From the NCBI GenBank assembly GCA_016788585.1, contig JAEURP010000007.1, positions 64,001 to 128,000 on the forward strand: a DNA stretch of 64,000 bases. The letters are read 5' to 3'. A model generated the notes under the pieces. That model did no database searches. It was not told where the DNA came from and was given only the letters and a program-made list of their open reading frames with translations. Positions 53,662 to 60,919 of this stretch are shown here, piece after piece. The position numbers and the translations under genes are program-made. Source of the DNA: Chthonomonas sp. (GTDB taxonomy: Bacteria > Armatimonadota > Fimbriimonadia > Fimbriimonadales > Fimbriimonadaceae). Numbering within the stretch: position 1 is the first letter of the stretch; each line of letters begins with the position of its first letter.

Positions 53662-54632
53662 TCAATCTTCCCGAAGATCTTTCGGGAATGAAACTCTTTG
53701 TTGGCAATGCCCACTTGGAACTCGGGAAACGTGTTGCCAAGAACCTCGGCATCGAACGGGGTCTAATGCGTTGCAAGCAGTTCAGCGACGGCGAGATTCA
53801 GCTGATGATCGAAGAGAGCGCCCGTGGCAACGACGTGTTCATCCTTCAGCCGACCTGCGCGCCGACGAATGACAACTTAATGGAGTTGCTCATCATGCTG
53901 GACGCATTCCGACGAGCCAGCGCCAGCCGAATCACGGTCGTCATGCCGTACTATGGTTATGCGCGGCAGGATAAGAAGACTAAGCCTCGCGAACCAATCA
54001 CTGCCCGCCTCGTGGCCGACCTCATCACCCAAGCGGGCGCAATGCGTATCGTCGCAGTCGATCTGCATGCCGAGCAAATTCAGGGATTCTTCGATATTCC
54101 GGTCGATCACCTTTACGCCGGTCCCATCTTGGGTGAGTATCTGGTCGAGCAAGGCTACGCCGAAAACCCCGATGTGATCGTCGTGTCGCCAGACGTGGGT
54201 GGGGTGCCTCGGGCGCGTTCGTTGGCCGAATTGCTTAAGTGCAGTCTTGCGATCATTGCCAAGCGCCGCCCCGAGCCGAATCAGGTGGACATCGTCGAAA
54301 TCATTGGCGACGTCGAAGGAAAGGTCTGCGTGATGATCGATGACATGATCGACACTGGGGGGAGTATTCGCCATGGCGCGGATGAGTTGCTTCGACGAGG
54401 CGCCAAAGAGGTCATCGCTTGTGCAACTCATGCGGTCTTCAGTGGGGACGCTGCTCAGATGTTGCAAGACAGTCGAATCAGCAAAGTCATCGTGACCGAT
54501 ACCACCCCAATCACGCCCCAAAAGAGTTTTCCAAAGCTGACGGTTTTGGAGTGCGCTCCGTTGCTGGGAGAGGCCATCCGGCGAATCCATATGAATGAGT
54601 CGGTTAGCACGCTCTTCAAAGAATGGCGCTAG
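53658..54632 (+). CDS. prs: Ribose-phosphate pyrophosphokinase
   Basis: Prs makes PRPP from ribose-5-phosphate and ATP for nucleotide, NAD and amino acid synthesis. ATG 53658 overlaps the glmU stop (ATGA) and gives a 324-residue protein. Motifs are FSDGEIQLMIEESARGNDVF, MPYYGYARQDKKTKPREPIT, VSPDVGGVPRARSLAE (catalytic region) and the PRPP loop VMIDDMIDTGGSIRHG. The glmU-prs pair is a frequent arrangement in bacteria. An upstream ATG at 53628 lies inside glmU and is less likely. Confidence 0.96.
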   Translation: MINLPEDLSGMKLFVGNAHLELGKRVAKNLGIERGLMRCKQFSDGEIQLMIEESARGNDVFILQPTCAPTNDNLMELLIMLDAFRRASASRITVVMPYYGYARQDKKTKPREPITARLVADLITQAGAMRIVAVDLHAEQIQGFFDIPVDHLYAGPILGEYLVEQGYAENPDVIVVSPDVGGVPRARSLAELLKCSLAIIAKRRPEPNQVDIVEIIGDVEGKVCVMIDDMIDTGGSIRHGADELLRRGAKEVIACATHAVFSGDAAQMLQDSRISKVIVTDTTPITPQKSFPKLTVLECAPLLGEAIRRIHMNESVSTLFKEWR

Positions 54633-55075
54633 AGTGGACCATCGATCTTGGTGCTCAAGAACCAAGAAAGCGGGCGGTTGTTGGCGCGGTGGCGATCGGA
54701 GTTGGGGCCCTTGGAGTGTTGGTGGTGACCCCTTGGCTCGCTCTCACGGGTTTTGCCCTCATCATTTTGAGCAACTCAGAGGTGTTCCTAAAGCAGTATT
54801 ACAAGATAACTGAGAACGGAGTTGAACGTAAATGCGGTCTCTCGACTACGGCGATGGAATGGGAACAGATCAAGTCGGTTCGAGAGGATTCGGACGGCGT
54901 TAAGCTGTCACCTTTTGAGTCGAGCCGACGTTCTGACCCCTTTCGCGGCGTCTATCTGAGGTTTAGTCAAAACAACCGAGAGGCCGTATTGGCTAAAATC
55001 CACGAACATTTTCATGGCGACCCGAGCATTTTGGGAGGAGGACTTGACGGAGGAGGAGCTGGACAAGCTCTGTAA
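54623..55075 (+). CDS. Membrane protein with PH-like domain
   Basis: The 150-residue protein has two hydrophobic segments (AVVGAVAIGVGALGVLVV and WLALTGFALIILSN). A bacterial PH-like beta domain follows (YYKITENGVERKCGLS, then EWEQIKSVREDSDGVKLSP). This layout is common among small YdbT/YokB-like membrane proteins of unknown role. It overlaps the end of prs by ten bases and the next gene by 62 bases, so it is probably translated as part of the glmU-prs run. Confidence 0.72.
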   Translation: MALEWTIDLGAQEPRKRAVVGAVAIGVGALGVLVVTPWLALTGFALIILSNSEVFLKQYYKITENGVERKCGLSTTAMEWEQIKSVREDSDGVKLSPFESSRRSDPFRGVYLRFSQNNREAVLAKIHEHFHGDPSILGGGLDGGGAGQAL

Positions 55076-55367
55076 GAGAGCTGCGCACGAAGTTACCAAG
55101 CGCCGCCTCGAAGCTCCCGCCATCATGCTTTTGGAAATGCACAAGCCTATCGCCAACTTCAACGCTCACCTGGCTCTTGGCGCAGCCGGGTTCTTGGCGC
55201 CGATCGTTGGTTTTGAGCTTTTTAACGATCTCACACGTCTCTTAGCGAAAAGAGATAACATTGACCGTCTCTTGGAGGAGATTGAGTCGCAAGCTGCGAA
55301 CCGGGGCAAACCGGGCGCTGATGAAAGGGCTGAAACCCCATGCAATACTACGACACAGGCTGGATAA
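55014..55367 (+). CDS. Hypothetical helical protein
   Basis: The 117-residue frame starts at ATG 55014 inside the end of the preceding gene and ends 28 bases into the DUF6754 gene. A later start (TTG 55044) would reduce the overlap. It has acidic and basic helices (WEEDLTEEELDKLCKRAAH) and one hydrophobic stretch (AHLALGAAGFLAPIVGFELF). A long helix follows and the end is low complexity. No family is recognised. The frame and overlaps suggest a real, coupled gene, but it is less certain than its neighbours. Confidence 0.55.
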   Translation: MATRAFWEEDLTEEELDKLCKRAAHEVTKRRLEAPAIMLLEMHKPIANFNAHLALGAAGFLAPIVGFELFNDLTRLLAKRDNIDRLLEEIESQAANRGKPGADERAETPCNTTTQAG

Positions 55368-56305
55368 GCATCTTGATTGTCTTAATGTTTGTGAGCTTTG
55401 TGCTCTATAACATTCGGAGAGCCAAGACAAAAGGAGATAAAGTTTACGTTCGGCGCATTGCCGGACTCAACGCCATCGATGAGGCGATTGGCCGGGCCAC
55501 AGAAATGGGCCGCCCCGTGCTCATGGTGCCGGGGCTTGGCGCGCTTGACGCCATCGCGGTGCAGGCTATCAACATCTTTGGGCACGTGACGGCAACGGCG
55601 GCTCGCTTCGCCACGCCGATCAGACTGTGCTGCGGCGATGCTGCGGTTTACACCGTGGCACAAGAGGTGATCAGCGAGGTCTATCAACGCGAGGGCCTCA
55701 GCGATCGTTTCGATCAAGATTCGGTTCGATTTATCTCGGACCGGCAATTTGCATTCGCGACCGGTGTCTCAGGTTTGATTCACCGCGAGAAAGTGGCGGC
55801 TGCATTCTTGTTGGGCACTTTCTACGCGGAGGCCCTGATCTTTGCTGAGACCGCGAACTCTATCGGAGCGATTCAAGTAGCTGGTTCAACTTCAAACACC
55901 CAGACTCCTTTCTTCATTGCGGCATGCGACTACGTTCTCATCGGAGACGAGTTCTATGCCGCTTCAGCCTACTTGAGCCGCGAGCCTGTCCTCACTGGCG
56001 CGCTCGTGGGCCAGGACTGGATCAAGATGACGATGATGAGCATGGTCCTCATCGGCGCCTTAGCTAATACGTTCGAAATGGTTTCGCAAAAACAAACCGC
56101 CGATGAAGTCGAAGTAGTGACACCAACTGCGGACAGGGCGGGATATGCGCCTGGAACAACCATCGAATACAAGTTAGAGCCTTTGAGCGAACCGCGGACA
56201 AAGCGGTCGAGTGAGTTATGGACAAGCCGGCTGTTCAATCAGAAGTCGGCTCCCACTCCCGAGCGAGAATTGGCGGAACCAGCAAAGACAGGAGGTGGCG
56301 AGTAG
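55340..56305 (+). CDS. DUF6754 membrane protein
   Basis: The 321-residue protein has an N-terminal membrane helix (SILIVLMFVSFVLYNIRRA) and a core matching DUF6754: GRPVLMVPGLGALDAIAVQA, AARFATPIRLCCGDAAVYT, RQFAFATGVSGLIHREK and TFYAEALIFAETANSIGA. A second part follows with FFIAACDYVLIGDEFYAASA and a hydrophobic segment (MMSMVLIGALANTF). The C-terminal 60 residues are disordered and charged. The family has no known function; it is a membrane protein usually found with other membrane proteins. It begins the four-gene operon to 59081 and abuts the next gene without a gap. Confidence 0.8.
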   Translation: MQYYDTGWISILIVLMFVSFVLYNIRRAKTKGDKVYVRRIAGLNAIDEAIGRATEMGRPVLMVPGLGALDAIAVQAINIFGHVTATAARFATPIRLCCGDAAVYTVAQEVISEVYQREGLSDRFDQDSVRFISDRQFAFATGVSGLIHREKVAAAFLLGTFYAEALIFAETANSIGAIQVAGSTSNTQTPFFIAACDYVLIGDEFYAASAYLSREPVLTGALVGQDWIKMTMMSMVLIGALANTFEMVSQKQTADEVEVVTPTADRAGYAPGTTIEYKLEPLSEPRTKRSSELWTSRLFNQKSAPTPERELAEPAKTGGGE

Positions 56306-57208
56306 ATGCTAAATCTCTTGGCCCAGACTGAAATGCCGCCGTTCGCGGCAGAAGGCGGTTCCGATCAAGTTAAGCAGTTTGCGCTTTACACGCTGATTGC
56401 CGGGTTCCTCCTGGTTGCGGCGATGTCCTTCGTCCCAACGAAGCTAAGGCGACCCATAGTGGTGGGGGCGACATTCTTGGCGGGCTTCTATTACGTGCTG
56501 TTATGGCTGTGGCCAAAGCCGGTGAACTTTGCACCCGAGCAAAAGCCGCAGGGCTCTGAGCACGTCGGTGTCTGGCTCACGAATGCGCTCCCAGGTGTGA
56601 GTAGCATCACCCAGACTCTCACAGCGTTGCTTCTCGGATTGGGTGTGTATTCAGTACTTCGGTTGCACGGCACCAAGCTGATTAAGAAGCAGAAGGACTG
56701 GGCGTTTAGCTTGGTCTTGCTGATTAGCATGCTCACCATGGTCACCATTGGCTATGTCGACTACAGCGAGCTCAAGAACAATCCAGATAAGGTGAATCAG
56801 GCCAGTTGGGGATTCTTCCAATACGCCAAGGACTTCCTGTTCGATGGCATGTTGCAAGCGATGGACGCTGCCATGTTTTCGAGCATCGCGTTCTTTATCC
56901 TTTTCGCGGCTTACCGGGCGTTCCGAATTCGTTCGATCGAGTCCACGGTTTTGCTGGCCACAGCTCTGATCGTGATGCTCTCGCTGATGGGGCTTGTCGA
57001 ATACGCGCTTTCAAAGCAAGTCATCGACTCGATAACCGGTGGCGACCCCGGTCACTTCATGAACAACTTTGCCCTCAATCAAGTCCGCAACTGGATTCAG
57101 ACTTATGTTCAAGGTCCGGGCATCCTGGCCCTTACTTGGGGGATCGGCATCGGCTCGCTGAGCATGGGACTTCGGTTGTGGCTCAGCCTGGAGAAGACAG
57201 GAGGTTAA
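56306..57208 (+). CDS. Seven-helix membrane protein of the DUF6754 operon
   Basis: The 300-residue protein starts directly after the DUF6754 stop. I count about seven membrane segments (for example FALYTLIAGFLLVAAMSFV, VVGATFLAGFYYVLLW, FSLVLLISMLTMVTIGYV and STVLLATALIVMLSLMG). A loop of about 30 residues after the fourth helix is acidic (YSELKNNPDKVNQASWGFF). I recognise no family or transporter motif. Its contact with the operon neighbours suggests it is the membrane core of a complex. Confidence 0.7.
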   Translation: MLNLLAQTEMPPFAAEGGSDQVKQFALYTLIAGFLLVAAMSFVPTKLRRPIVVGATFLAGFYYVLLWLWPKPVNFAPEQKPQGSEHVGVWLTNALPGVSSITQTLTALLLGLGVYSVLRLHGTKLIKKQKDWAFSLVLLISMLTMVTIGYVDYSELKNNPDKVNQASWGFFQYAKDFLFDGMLQAMDAAMFSSIAFFILFAAYRAFRIRSIESTVLLATALIVMLSLMGLVEYALSKQVIDSITGGDPGHFMNNFALNQVRNWIQTYVQGPGILALTWGIGIGSLSMGLRLWLSLEKTGG

Positions 57209-57212
57209 TCCA

Positions 57213-58169
57213 ATGGAGAAGTTACTTAACATCAACCGCTACGCGATGTACCTTCTGCTGTGCGTCGTCGTGACGATTCCATTCTTCTTGCCTCCCTCGG
57301 CAACGGTCATTCCAACACTAACGAATCCAAATACGCAGGACCTCTACATCAACATGATGCAGATTCCGGAGGGTAGCACGGTCATCATCGAATCTGACTG
57401 GACGGTTTCGACCCGAGGCGAAAGCGCTGGACAATTGGAGGCATTTCTAAAGATATGTCGCCACCGCAACCTCAAGTTTGTCCTCCTAAGTGGAGCCGAC
57501 CCGCAGGCACCTCAAGTGGCCCTTAACACGGTTAAGCGGCTAAATGCTCAGTTCAAGGACGCGGGCTTGCCGGAGTTTAAGCCTTGGGATGACTATCTCG
57601 CTGTAGGCTTGTTCCCAGACCCGGCGGCATTTTGGCAGACAGTGAGTGCAAACATTCGAACTTCGTTTGCCGGTAAGACTGCTTACGACCCTGCGGCTGG
57701 GCAACGACGAAGCGTTTATGAGTCTCCGGTGCTCAAGAACATCAAGACGAACAAGGATCTTGGTATGGTCGTTATCATCACCGCTTCGGCTTCGCTTGAT
57801 ACCATGGTTCAGCGCATGTCCGGCAAAGGCACGAAGCTGGCGCCTATGGTGACAGGTGTCATGGCTCCAGAAGCCATGGTGTATTACGCGAGCGGTCAGG
57901 TGGTTGGGCTATCCAACGGCCTTCGAGGCGTCGTTGAGCTTGAAACGATGATGGCGCGCGGTGTGAACTACAGCGCCGACAGTAAAGAGCCCTTCGTTAA
58001 GGCGCCGCAATTCCCTGGCAAGATTGAGCCACTACCGGAGGGGCTAAAGCCACTCGATCGCGGTATGAGCTACTTCGCCTCGCTTCACGCAGCGTTGATT
58101 CTCATGATTCTCGCCGTCGTACTCGGAAACATTGGCCTTCTGTACCAAAACAGAAAGGGGAAGAGCTAA
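57213..58169 (+). CDS. Bitopic protein with extracytoplasmic Rossmann-like domain
   Basis: The 318-residue protein has one N-terminal helix (AMYLLLCVVVTIPFFLPP) and one C-terminal helix (ALILMILAVVLGNIGLLYQN). A soluble domain of about 230 residues lies between them: GSTVIIESDWTVSTRGE, RNLKFVLLSGADPQAPQ, DLGMVVIITASASLDTM and EAMVYYASGQVVGLSNGLR. Alternating strand and helix suggests an alpha/beta fold related to ligand-binding or sensor domains. The gap to the previous gene is four bases. Unknown family. Confidence 0.68.
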   Translation: MEKLLNINRYAMYLLLCVVVTIPFFLPPSATVIPTLTNPNTQDLYINMMQIPEGSTVIIESDWTVSTRGESAGQLEAFLKICRHRNLKFVLLSGADPQAPQVALNTVKRLNAQFKDAGLPEFKPWDDYLAVGLFPDPAAFWQTVSANIRTSFAGKTAYDPAAGQRRSVYESPVLKNIKTNKDLGMVVIITASASLDTMVQRMSGKGTKLAPMVTGVMAPEAMVYYASGQVVGLSNGLRGVVELETMMARGVNYSADSKEPFVKAPQFPGKIEPLPEGLKPLDRGMSYFASLHAALILMILAVVLGNIGLLYQNRKGKS

Positions 58170-58172
58170 GCC

Positions 58173-59081
58173 ATGAACTTTGAATTCGCAAAAGTCGCGG
58201 TCGGCGTTGTTGCCACCCTTGGTCTCTACAGTGTTCTGTATCGCGAGAACAAGTTCTATCGCCTCATCGAGCACATCTACATTGGTTTGGCGGTGGGCTT
58301 CTCCATCGTCGCTCTTTGGGTAGAAACGCTCGAGTCTTCCTGGTGGAATCAGATGGTTGGGACCGCAGCTGTTCCGGCAACCGCTACGGCGCCCGCACAG
58401 CCGTCGACGCCTGGGTACTACTTGTTCGCCTTGCTGGTCCCCATTGGATTGCTTGGCTACACGGTTTTCAGCAAGAAGAACAACTGGATGAGCCGTATTC
58501 CGATTGGAATGTTGCTAGGTTTTTGGGGTGGTCAGCAACTTCAAGTTTTCTGGCAAACCTACAGTCCCCAGCTCCAATCCGCAATGAAGCCGGTGTTGCC
58601 GACGACGACAAGCTCGGTCTTCATGCCGAGGTCTATCGAACTCAGCAATGTCGCGGTCAATGAGATTTCCACGGCGACCCAACTTCCGCCGAATGTCGTT
58701 ACCGACCTCTCGCGGAACTTCCGTCTGAACACAGACATGGTGGCGAATTTTGCCCAGCAAAACAATGTGAGCCCGGAGAGCGTGCAAGCGGCAATGGGCG
58801 CTATGGCCGGCAGAGTTGGCGGCGAAGTTTACATGAGCCAAGCCATCAGCAATATCATTTTCTTGCTGACATTGCTGAGCGTGCTGACCTACTTCCTCTT
58901 CAGCTTCGAGCAGAAGGGCAAGTTCATTAACGGCTTTACGCGACTGGGTCGCTGGTTGCTCATGGTTGGCTTCGGCGCTATCTTTGGTTCAACCGTCATG
59001 GGGCGATTCGCCCTCTTGATCGATCGCATGTACTTTGTGATCATCGAGTTCTTCCAAGGCCTCCGCTCGCTAGGCGGATAG
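58173..59081 (+). CDS. Membrane protein with large soluble loop
   Basis: The 302-residue protein has about four N-terminal segments (VAVGVVATLGLYSVLY, IYIGLAVGFSIVALWV, FALLVPIGLLGYTVF, PIGMLLGFWGGQQLQV). A loop of about 100 polar residues rich in Asn, Thr and Val follows, then two C-terminal segments (FLLTLLSVLTYFLF, LLMVGFGAIFGSTVMG). It is the last gene before the terminator, three bases after the preceding stop. No family is recognised. Confidence 0.68.
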   Translation: MNFEFAKVAVGVVATLGLYSVLYRENKFYRLIEHIYIGLAVGFSIVALWVETLESSWWNQMVGTAAVPATATAPAQPSTPGYYLFALLVPIGLLGYTVFSKKNNWMSRIPIGMLLGFWGGQQLQVFWQTYSPQLQSAMKPVLPTTTSSVFMPRSIELSNVAVNEISTATQLPPNVVTDLSRNFRLNTDMVANFAQQNNVSPESVQAAMGAMAGRVGGEVYMSQAISNIIFLLTLLSVLTYFLFSFEQKGKFINGFTRLGRWLLMVGFGAIFGSTVMGRFALLIDRMYFVIIEFFQGLRSLGG

Positions 59082-59097
59082 AGTCAAGCAAGTCAAA

Positions 59098-59131
59098 GCC
59101 GCCCACCGAGTTCGGTGGGCGGCTTTTGTTT
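59098..59131. terminator. Rho-independent terminator
   Basis: A perfect 11-base stem (GCCGCCCACCG with CGGTGGGCGGC) with an AGTT loop is followed by TTTTGTTT on the plus strand. It ends the four-gene membrane operon. The minus-strand ltaE gene ends five bases further on and, lacking a T tract on that side, benefits less. Confidence 0.92.
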
Positions 59132-59135
59132 GCCT

Positions 59136-60146
59136 CTATGGTTGGCTTTCGGTGAAGGCTTTGACCGCATGTTCGACCATTTCATCTGAAATGTCGTAAT
59201 GAAACACGCATCGAACTCTGTTCTTGCGAAAGGCCATGCATCGGACGCCGTTCTGTTCAAGGTGCGATACCCAAGCAGCGGCCGGCTGCTCGGTGTCTAC
59301 CATTACAAAGTTCGTTTGAGCTCTTGCAGAGAGTCCTGGCTTTCCATCGAGGGCCCCTGCAAATGCGCGGGCGCGATCATGGTCTTCTGAAAGTCGGTGC
59401 CGCACCGAACGTAATCCAACCAGTCCGGCGGCTGCAAGCAAGCCCGCTTGACGCATCCCTCCACCTAGTCTCTTTCGCCACTTGCGGGCCTTAATGATAA
59501 ACTCCGCCGGGCCACAGAGGACAGACCCCACTGGGGCGCCCAGCGCTTTGCTAAGGCAGAAATTGACCGAGTCGAATGGATCCGCCATTTCCTTTGGCTC
59601 GCAACCGATGTCGGTGCATGCGTTAAACATCCGTGCGCCGTCCAGGTGGAGCCAGATGCCGTACTCATCGGCGATTCGTCGGTATTCTTGGGTCACGGAA
59701 ATCGGAACGACCGATCCACCGGCCCGGTTGTTTGTGTTTTCGACTCCAATAAACGTCGTCCCAGGAGTGTGCAAGCTGGTGACCTGAATGCGTGATTCGA
59801 CTTCGCCCGGATCCATCACGCCGTTGTCGGCAGGACACGTACGCGTGGTGACTTGCGCAATGACCCCCGGGGCCCCAACTTCATAGTAAAGCATGTGGGC
59901 CTCCTCTTCGAAAAGGGCACAATCACCACGTTCGGTTGCGGAGGCAAGGGCGAGTTGATTACCCATCGTGCCACTCGGAACGAAGACAGCGGCCTCTTTG
60001 CCCAGCAGGTCAGCCGAAAAGGCCTCAAGCTCCATCACCGTCGGATCATCACCGAGAACGTCATCGCCTAATGCTGCCGAACGCATTGCCTCCCACATTT
60101 CGGGAGTGGGTTGAGTGACGGTATCGCTTCGTAAATCGACAATCAT
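59136..60146 (-). CDS. ltaE: Low-specificity L-threonine aldolase
   Basis: The 336-residue PLP enzyme splits L-threonine or L-allo-threonine to glycine and acetaldehyde. It has the start [19 protein letters not shown], the [11 protein letters not shown] loop, [21 protein letters not shown]-like ([12 protein letters not shown]) and the PLP-lysine region [18 protein letters not shown]. The [15 protein letters not shown] segment is also standard. ATG 60146 overlaps the stop of the exonuclease-like gene by four bases. Confidence 0.94.
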
Positions 60147-60919
60147 TGAGCGCTCTTACTGAATAGGGATGGCGTTGGACCAAGGCAATAGCGCTTCATG
60201 CCATCGTAGGCGACTTCGGCCAGCCGCTCCATGTTGACGCAATCTTCTCGGTTGTAGGCGATGAGCGTCTCCATAGCGCTCTCGTCGCCGCGCAGGTACC
60301 GCCGCCACAGCCAGATCGCATCGCGGCCCGTTAGTCCAGCCGTCTCAGGCGACCTCTGGATTCCAAGGTGTGCTTCGATCTTCTTGAGGCCTCCGCGATA
60401 ACCTAGCCTCTTCAATGGGAGCATCAGGTCCAAATGGATATGATCGAAAACGACATCCCGAAAACGGCGTTGCAGCACGGGAACGTCGAATGAGAACCCA
60501 TTGAACGAGACGATCATGGAATAGTTCGTGATTAGGTCTCGAAATCGCTCAAGATCGTGCCCCTTGATTAAGGCTACAAACTGAGATCCGTCGTAGGCGC
60601 CGATGGTTGTAATCGAGTCTGATGAGTTCGTGCCGTCGGTCTCGATATCGAGGTAGAGGCAAGAGTCTTTGAACTCTTGCCATGCTCGCCAAGATTCAGC
60701 AAGCCCTAGTGTCTTCGCAAAATACTGGTGGTGCTTGGCTTCGAGGGCCTGCTTCGATTGTCGGATCTGCTCGATAACGAGCGACCTGGAAGCCCCGCCG
60801 ACGGAATAGCGATCCGGCTCTGCCAAAAAGTCGTCCCATGTCTCGCATCCGTGTGCCCAAAGGGCGGCTTCGGTTTGCCGGCCAATTCCTTGGATATGCG
60901 AGAACGTACGAGTGAGCAA
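60143..60919 (-). CDS. RNase H-like DEDD exonuclease protein with HhH region
   Basis: From TTG 60919 the protein is 258 residues. The N-terminal part (FSHIQGIGRQTEAALW) is helix-hairpin-helix-like. The core has the DEDD residues: LYLDIETDG (Asp and Glu), IVSFNGFSFDVPVLQRRF (Asp), and YNREDCVNM (last Asp). HLDLMLPLKRLGYRGGLK is the conserved middle motif. This matches YprB-type ribonuclease H-like domains of unknown substrate. It lies one base behind the secreted-protein gene and overlaps ltaE. The longer frame to 61093 runs inside the neighbouring gene and is rejected. Confidence 0.82.
   Translation of the reverse strand: MLTRTFSHIQGIGRQTEAALWAHGCETWDDFLAEPDRYSVGGASRSLVIEQIRQSKQALEAKHHQYFAKTLGLAESWRAWQEFKDSCLYLDIETDGTNSSDSITTIGAYDGSQFVALIKGHDLERFRDLITNYSMIVSFNGFSFDVPVLQRRFRDVVFDHIHLDLMLPLKRLGYRGGLKKIEAHLGIQRSPETAGLTGRDAIWLWRRYLRGDESAMETLIAYNREDCVNMERLAEVAYDGMKRYCLGPTPSLFSKSAQ

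Follow-up and report, generated by a model that had tools for sequence, protein, structure and literature searches.

The DUF6754 membrane module of Armatimonadota and other bacteria: a candidate ATPase-coupled machine of the diderm envelope

Introduction

In the PilM-N-O-P and GspL platforms, a cytoplasmic protein of the ASKHA type is linked to proteins of the inner membrane that extend domains into the periplasm. The four-gene module analysed here, A-B-C-D, resembles these platforms in outline at most. No relation of A or C to their components was found in sequence or fold, and no pilus or secretion genes were found among its neighbours. A second relevant system is TonB-ExbB-ExbD, with which the module shares the outline of a complex in the inner membrane and a presumed action on the outer one, and whose genes adjoin A-B-C-D in WOR-3 and in Fermentibacteria-type loci. 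However, the A-D proteins have no match to its families, and the energy source that we propose for them is ATP instead of proton flow. The third comparison concerns MutL/GlmL (PF13941), a family of the ASKHA superfamily. The putative partner ATPase of the module exceeds the cut-off of this family and has kept the ATP-site motifs, but it differs in its length of about 600 residues, in an extra C-terminal region and in being coded together with a membrane complex in genomes that lack the mutase.

DUF6754 (PF20539), of which gene A is a full member, is described by Pfam as one domain of unknown function. In the open-access library that we searched, DUF6754 is not treated in any paper, nor are the four-gene module and its partners, and nothing relevant turned up on PF20539, PF13941 and related subjects. 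Within the literature thus covered, the A-D module is undescribed.

Results

The conserved block and its limits

The analysed window is a stretch of 64,000 nucleotides from a Chthonomonas sp. genome (Armatimonadota). An initial annotation had noted four abutting membrane genes in front of a strong terminator and proposed them as a candidate undescribed complex. The block comprises the following features:

PH, 54623-55075, plus strand: first gene of the conserved block; homologues adjoin the block in 62/120 loci
S, 55014-55367, plus strand: small conserved protein; homologues in 69/120 loci
A, 55340-56305, plus strand: DUF6754 protein (PF20539, 7.9e-91); AlphaFold2 model with pLDDT 88, topology predicted from the family
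B, 56306-57208, plus strand: predicted polytopic membrane protein (family hydropathy); in 116/120 loci
C, 57213-58169, plus strand: AlphaFold2 model with pLDDT 94, topology predicted from charge and hydropathy; in 113/120 loci
D, 58173-59081, plus strand: predicted polytopic membrane protein (alignment); in 110/120 loci
Terminator, about 59096-59125, plus strand: intrinsic hairpin with T-rich tail behind D (fold energy)

The open reading frames of A-D are present as annotated, arranged head to tail on the plus strand from 55340 to 59081 with gaps of 0, 4 and 3 bases. The terminator was likewise borne out: the segment 59082-59135 folds with -33.9 kcal/mol (z -7.1) and none of 200 shuffles was equally good, while a simple consensus terminator scan missed the hairpin. 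Gene A scores 304 bits against PF20539 (cut-off 27), in agreement with its assignment to DUF6754; B, C and D reach no Pfam-type family over the curated cut-off. As an account of A-D the four-gene extent holds, but the limits of the block had been drawn too narrowly, since PH and S also belong to it and the conserved block begins at 54623. PH is a small protein with a pair of membrane helices and a weak match to a PH-like domain of the bacterial type (bPH_6, E=0.0021, under the family cut-off). S has 117 amino acids as called from its first ATG, and its true start may lie later; as called, the frames of PH and S overlap each other and A. The called frames of prs and glmU, upstream of PH, overlap too, so that the transcript possibly starts further upstream. 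A scan of 54000-60500 for promoter-like sites found none.

Gene order, duplication and spread

We compared 120 loci, composed of 38 long Armatimonadota loci, 80 from a scan of GTDB genomes and two fetched for MutL alone. A is present in 118 of them, B in 116, C in 113 and D in 110, in a nearly invariant order, and contig ends explain at least some of the missing genes. Locus L091, from Chthonomonas calidirosea, is among those that carry the module. The scan gave at least 583 matches and its taxonomic range is a lower bound; according to the record titles, A-B-C-D occurs at least in Armatimonadota, WOR-3/Stahlbacteria, Poribacteria, Fermentibacteria, Latescibacterota, Edwardsbacteria, Coatesbacteria, Zixiibacteriota, Eisenbacteria, Neomarinimicrobiota, Muiribacteriota, CSSED10-310 and UBP7. 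Shared order in distant phyla had been set beforehand as the check on the idea that the four proteins are parts of one membrane machine, and the order A-B-C-D recurs in more than 110 of the 120 loci.

Six loci carry two or three tandem A-B-C-D sets, in which all four genes are similarly diverged (41-63% identity), indicating that the set was copied as a unit. Given the recurrent order and the tandem duplication of whole sets, A-B-C-D is well supported as one module by comparative genomics, and its products very probably form one complex, as had been suspected from the packing of the genes. Single genes are doubled in tandem as well, A alone in two loci (L060, L069) and C alone in one (L061), which hints at A and C subunits being present in more than one copy. 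Three consecutive sets, some with an incomplete B call, were seen in L210, L211 and L214, whose WOR-3 genomes have six to seven DUF6754 copies overall.

Of 291 Armatimonadota genomes, 252 carry DUF6754 (181 of the 194 good ones). In the WOR-3 group it was detected in 94 of 100 genomes, with up to seven copies, and in the 14 model genomes used as controls it is absent. Two small genomes of the window's own family (G132 and G133; 1.5 Mb, 97% complete) have neither DUF6754 nor MutL nor BL. The latter two genes are found in one locus with the block, in the order PH-S-MutL-BL-A-B-C-D, in deep Armatimonadota families and in Fermentibacteria, while the Neomarinimicrobiota order is MutL-BL-S-A-B-C-D.

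Predicted anatomy of the four proteins

The topology of A-D was derived from family-wide hydropathy and charge. For A, two membrane helices are predicted to enclose a Rossmann-like domain on the cytoplasmic side (pLDDT 88), and many relatives carry a signal peptide and an FN3 domain on the outside. Many polar residues of A are invariant (R52, E55, Q136, R149, E164, Q188, D197, E204, D226 and K229). They are located in the cytoplasmic domain and at the edge of the membrane, which would fit a ligand site or a coupling surface. B, initially described as a seven-helix protein and a possible pore or core, has a conserved core of six predicted helices. The model of C (pLDDT 94) predicts a Rossmann-like domain on the outside, consistent with the extracytoplasmic domain assigned to it, for which ligand binding had been suggested as a possibility, but this domain is flanked by one membrane helix at each end, and the protein is therefore not bitopic; E70 is invariant and D127, Q229 and E244 are nearly so. 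D had been drawn with membrane helices at both ends of a polar loop. The loop exists, but the alignment places it as an insertion of about 71 residues before the last two helices, absent from most relatives, and the protein is predicted to have six helices.

The view that none of the four belongs to a known transporter, secretion system or respiratory complex was upheld by family, PDB-profile and Foldseek searches. Sequence-to-PDB profiles of A, B, C and BL matched nothing except the FN3 domain of A's relatives. With Foldseek, A and C were compared with the PDB and A also with viral models, and no hit reached E<=0.001. Matches of A to RCK, SIS and generic Rossmann folds were too weak to use. 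A-D have no match to MotA_ExbB, ExbD or TonB domains. A role in anti-phage defence was discarded, as A-D had no match in the PADLOC library.

The invariant polar residues in the cytoplasmic domain of A and in C, which suggest ligand sites, would also suit a signalling or sensory complex, in which the outer domain of C binds a ligand, the cytoplasmic domain of A signals, and the part played by MutL and BL is that of a switch instead of a motor. The weak, non-significant RCK and SIS matches of A would fit such a complex, as would a DUF4388 gene adjoining A-B-C-D in WOR-3 and a response regulator behind BL, seen in the window's genome. However, A-D lack any kinase, cyclase or known receptor domain, and a machine would account at least equally well for the near-universality of the module within phyla and for the copying of complete sets. 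We thus regard a signalling role as unlikely.

Neighbouring genes

For the preferred reading, an inner-membrane machine of the envelope, the neighbourhood of the module provides hints. In 11 loci, the distance between A-B-C-D and a TonB-dependent receptor is 0.2-1.8 kb. ExbB/ExbD lie about 3-4 kb off in nine loci, and TonB occurs in four. WOR-3 sets occur in three settings, which adjoin (i) DUF4388 and ExbB-ExbD-ExbD, in some cases with TonB, (ii) an SLBB/Poly_export protein, a TonB-dependent receptor and a patatin-Omp85 protein, or (iii) a Wzi capsule protein. In Fermentibacteria-type loci, the receptor follows D at a distance of 0.2-1.1 kb, with ExbB/ExbD 3-4 kb off in three of them, and in one Latescibacterota locus Wzi is only 35 bases from the block. 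Outer-membrane neighbours were thus found in these three groups of loci and none near the window, where A-D are surrounded by housekeeping genes (glmU, prs). Since the 17 genomes counted have only 0-8 TonB-dependent receptors each, adjacency by chance in two separate phyla looks unlikely; this association with outer-membrane genes was spotted after looking, comes without a proper p-value, and clade-mates are not independent. Together with the membrane topology, the neighbours point to the envelope of diderm bacteria. A roadblock/LC7 identity considered for the proteins beside DUF4388 found no Pfam support.

In three clades, phospholipid genes (CdsA, lipid kinase, PlsX-FabH) adjoin MutL or the complete block:

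L055, 1-1254: phospholipid genes
L063, 1-1419: phospholipid genes
L137, 1877-3643: phospholipid genes
L190, L192 and L201-L204: phospholipid genes

CdsA and the lipid kinase adjoin the locus in Neomarinimicrobiota and in a single Armatimonadota family, and PlsX-FabH adjoins S-MutL in WOR-3. Such neighbours could speak for an inner-membrane complex that handles phospholipids, either in transport or in the control of synthesis, with MutL as its ATPase. Yet they amount to three clade-level events among 154 loci, the neighbours elsewhere are unrelated housekeeping genes, and A-D contain no recognised lipid-binding family, which makes this reading quite unlikely.

MutL and BL as partners

The envelope machine that we favour would include MutL and BL. 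In the window's genome, both are separate from A-D, contig 25 carrying MutL and contig 16 carrying BL, and in most Armatimonadota they are not linked to A-D; S adjoins MutL in many genomes in which MutL stands apart. Behind BL of the window's genome, at a distance of one base, follows an OmpR-type response regulator (L163, 6970-7641). MutL of this genome scores 423.5 bits against PF13941, over the curated cut-off. BL has about 375 residues with a short biotinyl/lipoyl-like match and a tail that we read as KOW-like. An acceptor lysine was sought in 20 BL sequences and no invariant or nearly invariant lysine was found, so that BL failed the test for a biotinyl/lipoyl carrier. A resemblance of BL to RnfC received no support from a profile search.

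Across the 291 Armatimonadota genomes, the phi coefficients are 0.58 for A and BL, 0.60 for A and MutL and 0.74 for BL and MutL, values that are inflated by incomplete assemblies and shared ancestry; six weak near-threshold MutL matches were inspected for this count and five of them scored as absent. DUF6754, MutL and BL are missing together from 20 of the 291, including genomes that are 97-99% complete. In 45 DUF6754 genomes outside the best-sampled Armatimonadota loci, BL was found in 43 and MutL over the cut-off in 44, a few of these matches being fragments or a fused paralogue. One part also occurs without another, as in G004 (MutL and BL, no DUF6754) and G078 (the reverse), and several of the genomes with one part missing are fragmented assemblies. 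Paralogous MutL-BL fusion proteins of 900-1,100 residues are encoded at the following positions:

L174, 4822-7671: MutL-BL fusion
L175, 3786-6545 and 17484-19499: MutL-BL fusions
L176, 1814-4546: MutL-BL fusion
L177, 6803-9724: MutL-BL fusion
L178, 4511-7228: MutL-BL fusion
L179, 5197-8169: MutL-BL fusion

Some genomes have the fused paralogue beside a separate pair of MutL and BL.

Among 41 MutL sequences, the ATP-site motifs are kept almost throughout (phosphate-1 in 40, phosphate-2 in 41, adenosine in 38). The catalytic subunit of glutamate mutase, GlmE (PF06368), is absent from the window's genome and exceeds its cut-off in one of the 291 Armatimonadota genomes and in none of the 194 good ones. 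A service of MutL to glutamate mutase was hence rejected, and the name 'glutamate mutase L' misleads here, as the mutase itself is absent. With no mutase to serve and intact ATP-site motifs, we read MutL as the probable ATPase of the A-D system. In L159 (G212) and L160 (G004), MutL is shorter and higher-scoring, with frames of 467 and 483 residues; these copies may differ from the 600-residue type of the system and be true accessories of glutamate mutase.

That MutL and BL instead serve vitamin-B12 or some other metabolism, with A-B-C-D as a separate complex and co-occurrence due to shared ancestry, would suit the family name and the unlinked genes of the window's genome, but is very unlikely given the near-absence of the catalytic subunit, the joint loci of MutL, BL and A-D in several phyla and their joint absence. 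Returning to the envelope machine, we consider it likely from the genomic associations that MutL, BL and S are parts of it.

Discussion

Our interpretation builds on gene order, whole-set duplication, co-occurrence, the MutL-BL fusion, ATP-site motifs and the predicted folds of A and C. From these we infer a physical complex, the use of ATP, the direction of coupling and a role at the outer membrane, each with its own degree of confidence. PH, S, MutL, BL, A, B, C and D probably constitute an eight-protein machine with A-D as its membrane core. A-B-C-D would assemble in the inner membrane as one complex with some 16 predicted helices, with the Rossmann-like domain of A in the cytoplasm and that of C on the outer face. 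On the cytoplasmic side, MutL would be the ASKHA-type ATPase and BL a barrel-sandwich/KOW-like adaptor, while S and the PH-like protein would be accessory. MutL would bind and hydrolyse ATP, BL would carry the resulting conformational change to the cytoplasmic domain of A, and the membrane core of B and D would relay it to C and, where present, to the outer FN3 domain of A. In consequence, envelope components would be moved, loaded or energised.

We lean, with some reserve, towards an ATP-driven machine, and see a service to the outer membrane as possible, at somewhat below even chances. Taken as a whole, an ATPase-coupled inner-membrane machine for the diderm envelope is an even call, in which the module is well supported by genomics and the motor and task are our interpretation. 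More tentative is the proposal of a new class of ATP-driven envelope machines, in which a MutL-like ASKHA ATPase and a barrel-sandwich adaptor might power a DUF6754-B-C-D core for outer-membrane transport or assembly in diderms of about a dozen poorly studied phyla, in some of them in multiple copies.

The module appears to be core equipment in the two sampled phyla, where nearly every genome has it, and is found in none of the 14 model genomes. For these bacteria, the inherited annotation 'glutamate mutase L' is misleading, and several unnamed families are joined into one candidate machine with a probable ATPase. If its role in the envelope is true, the machine would represent an as yet unrecognised route by which diderm bacteria supply their outer membrane or energise it.
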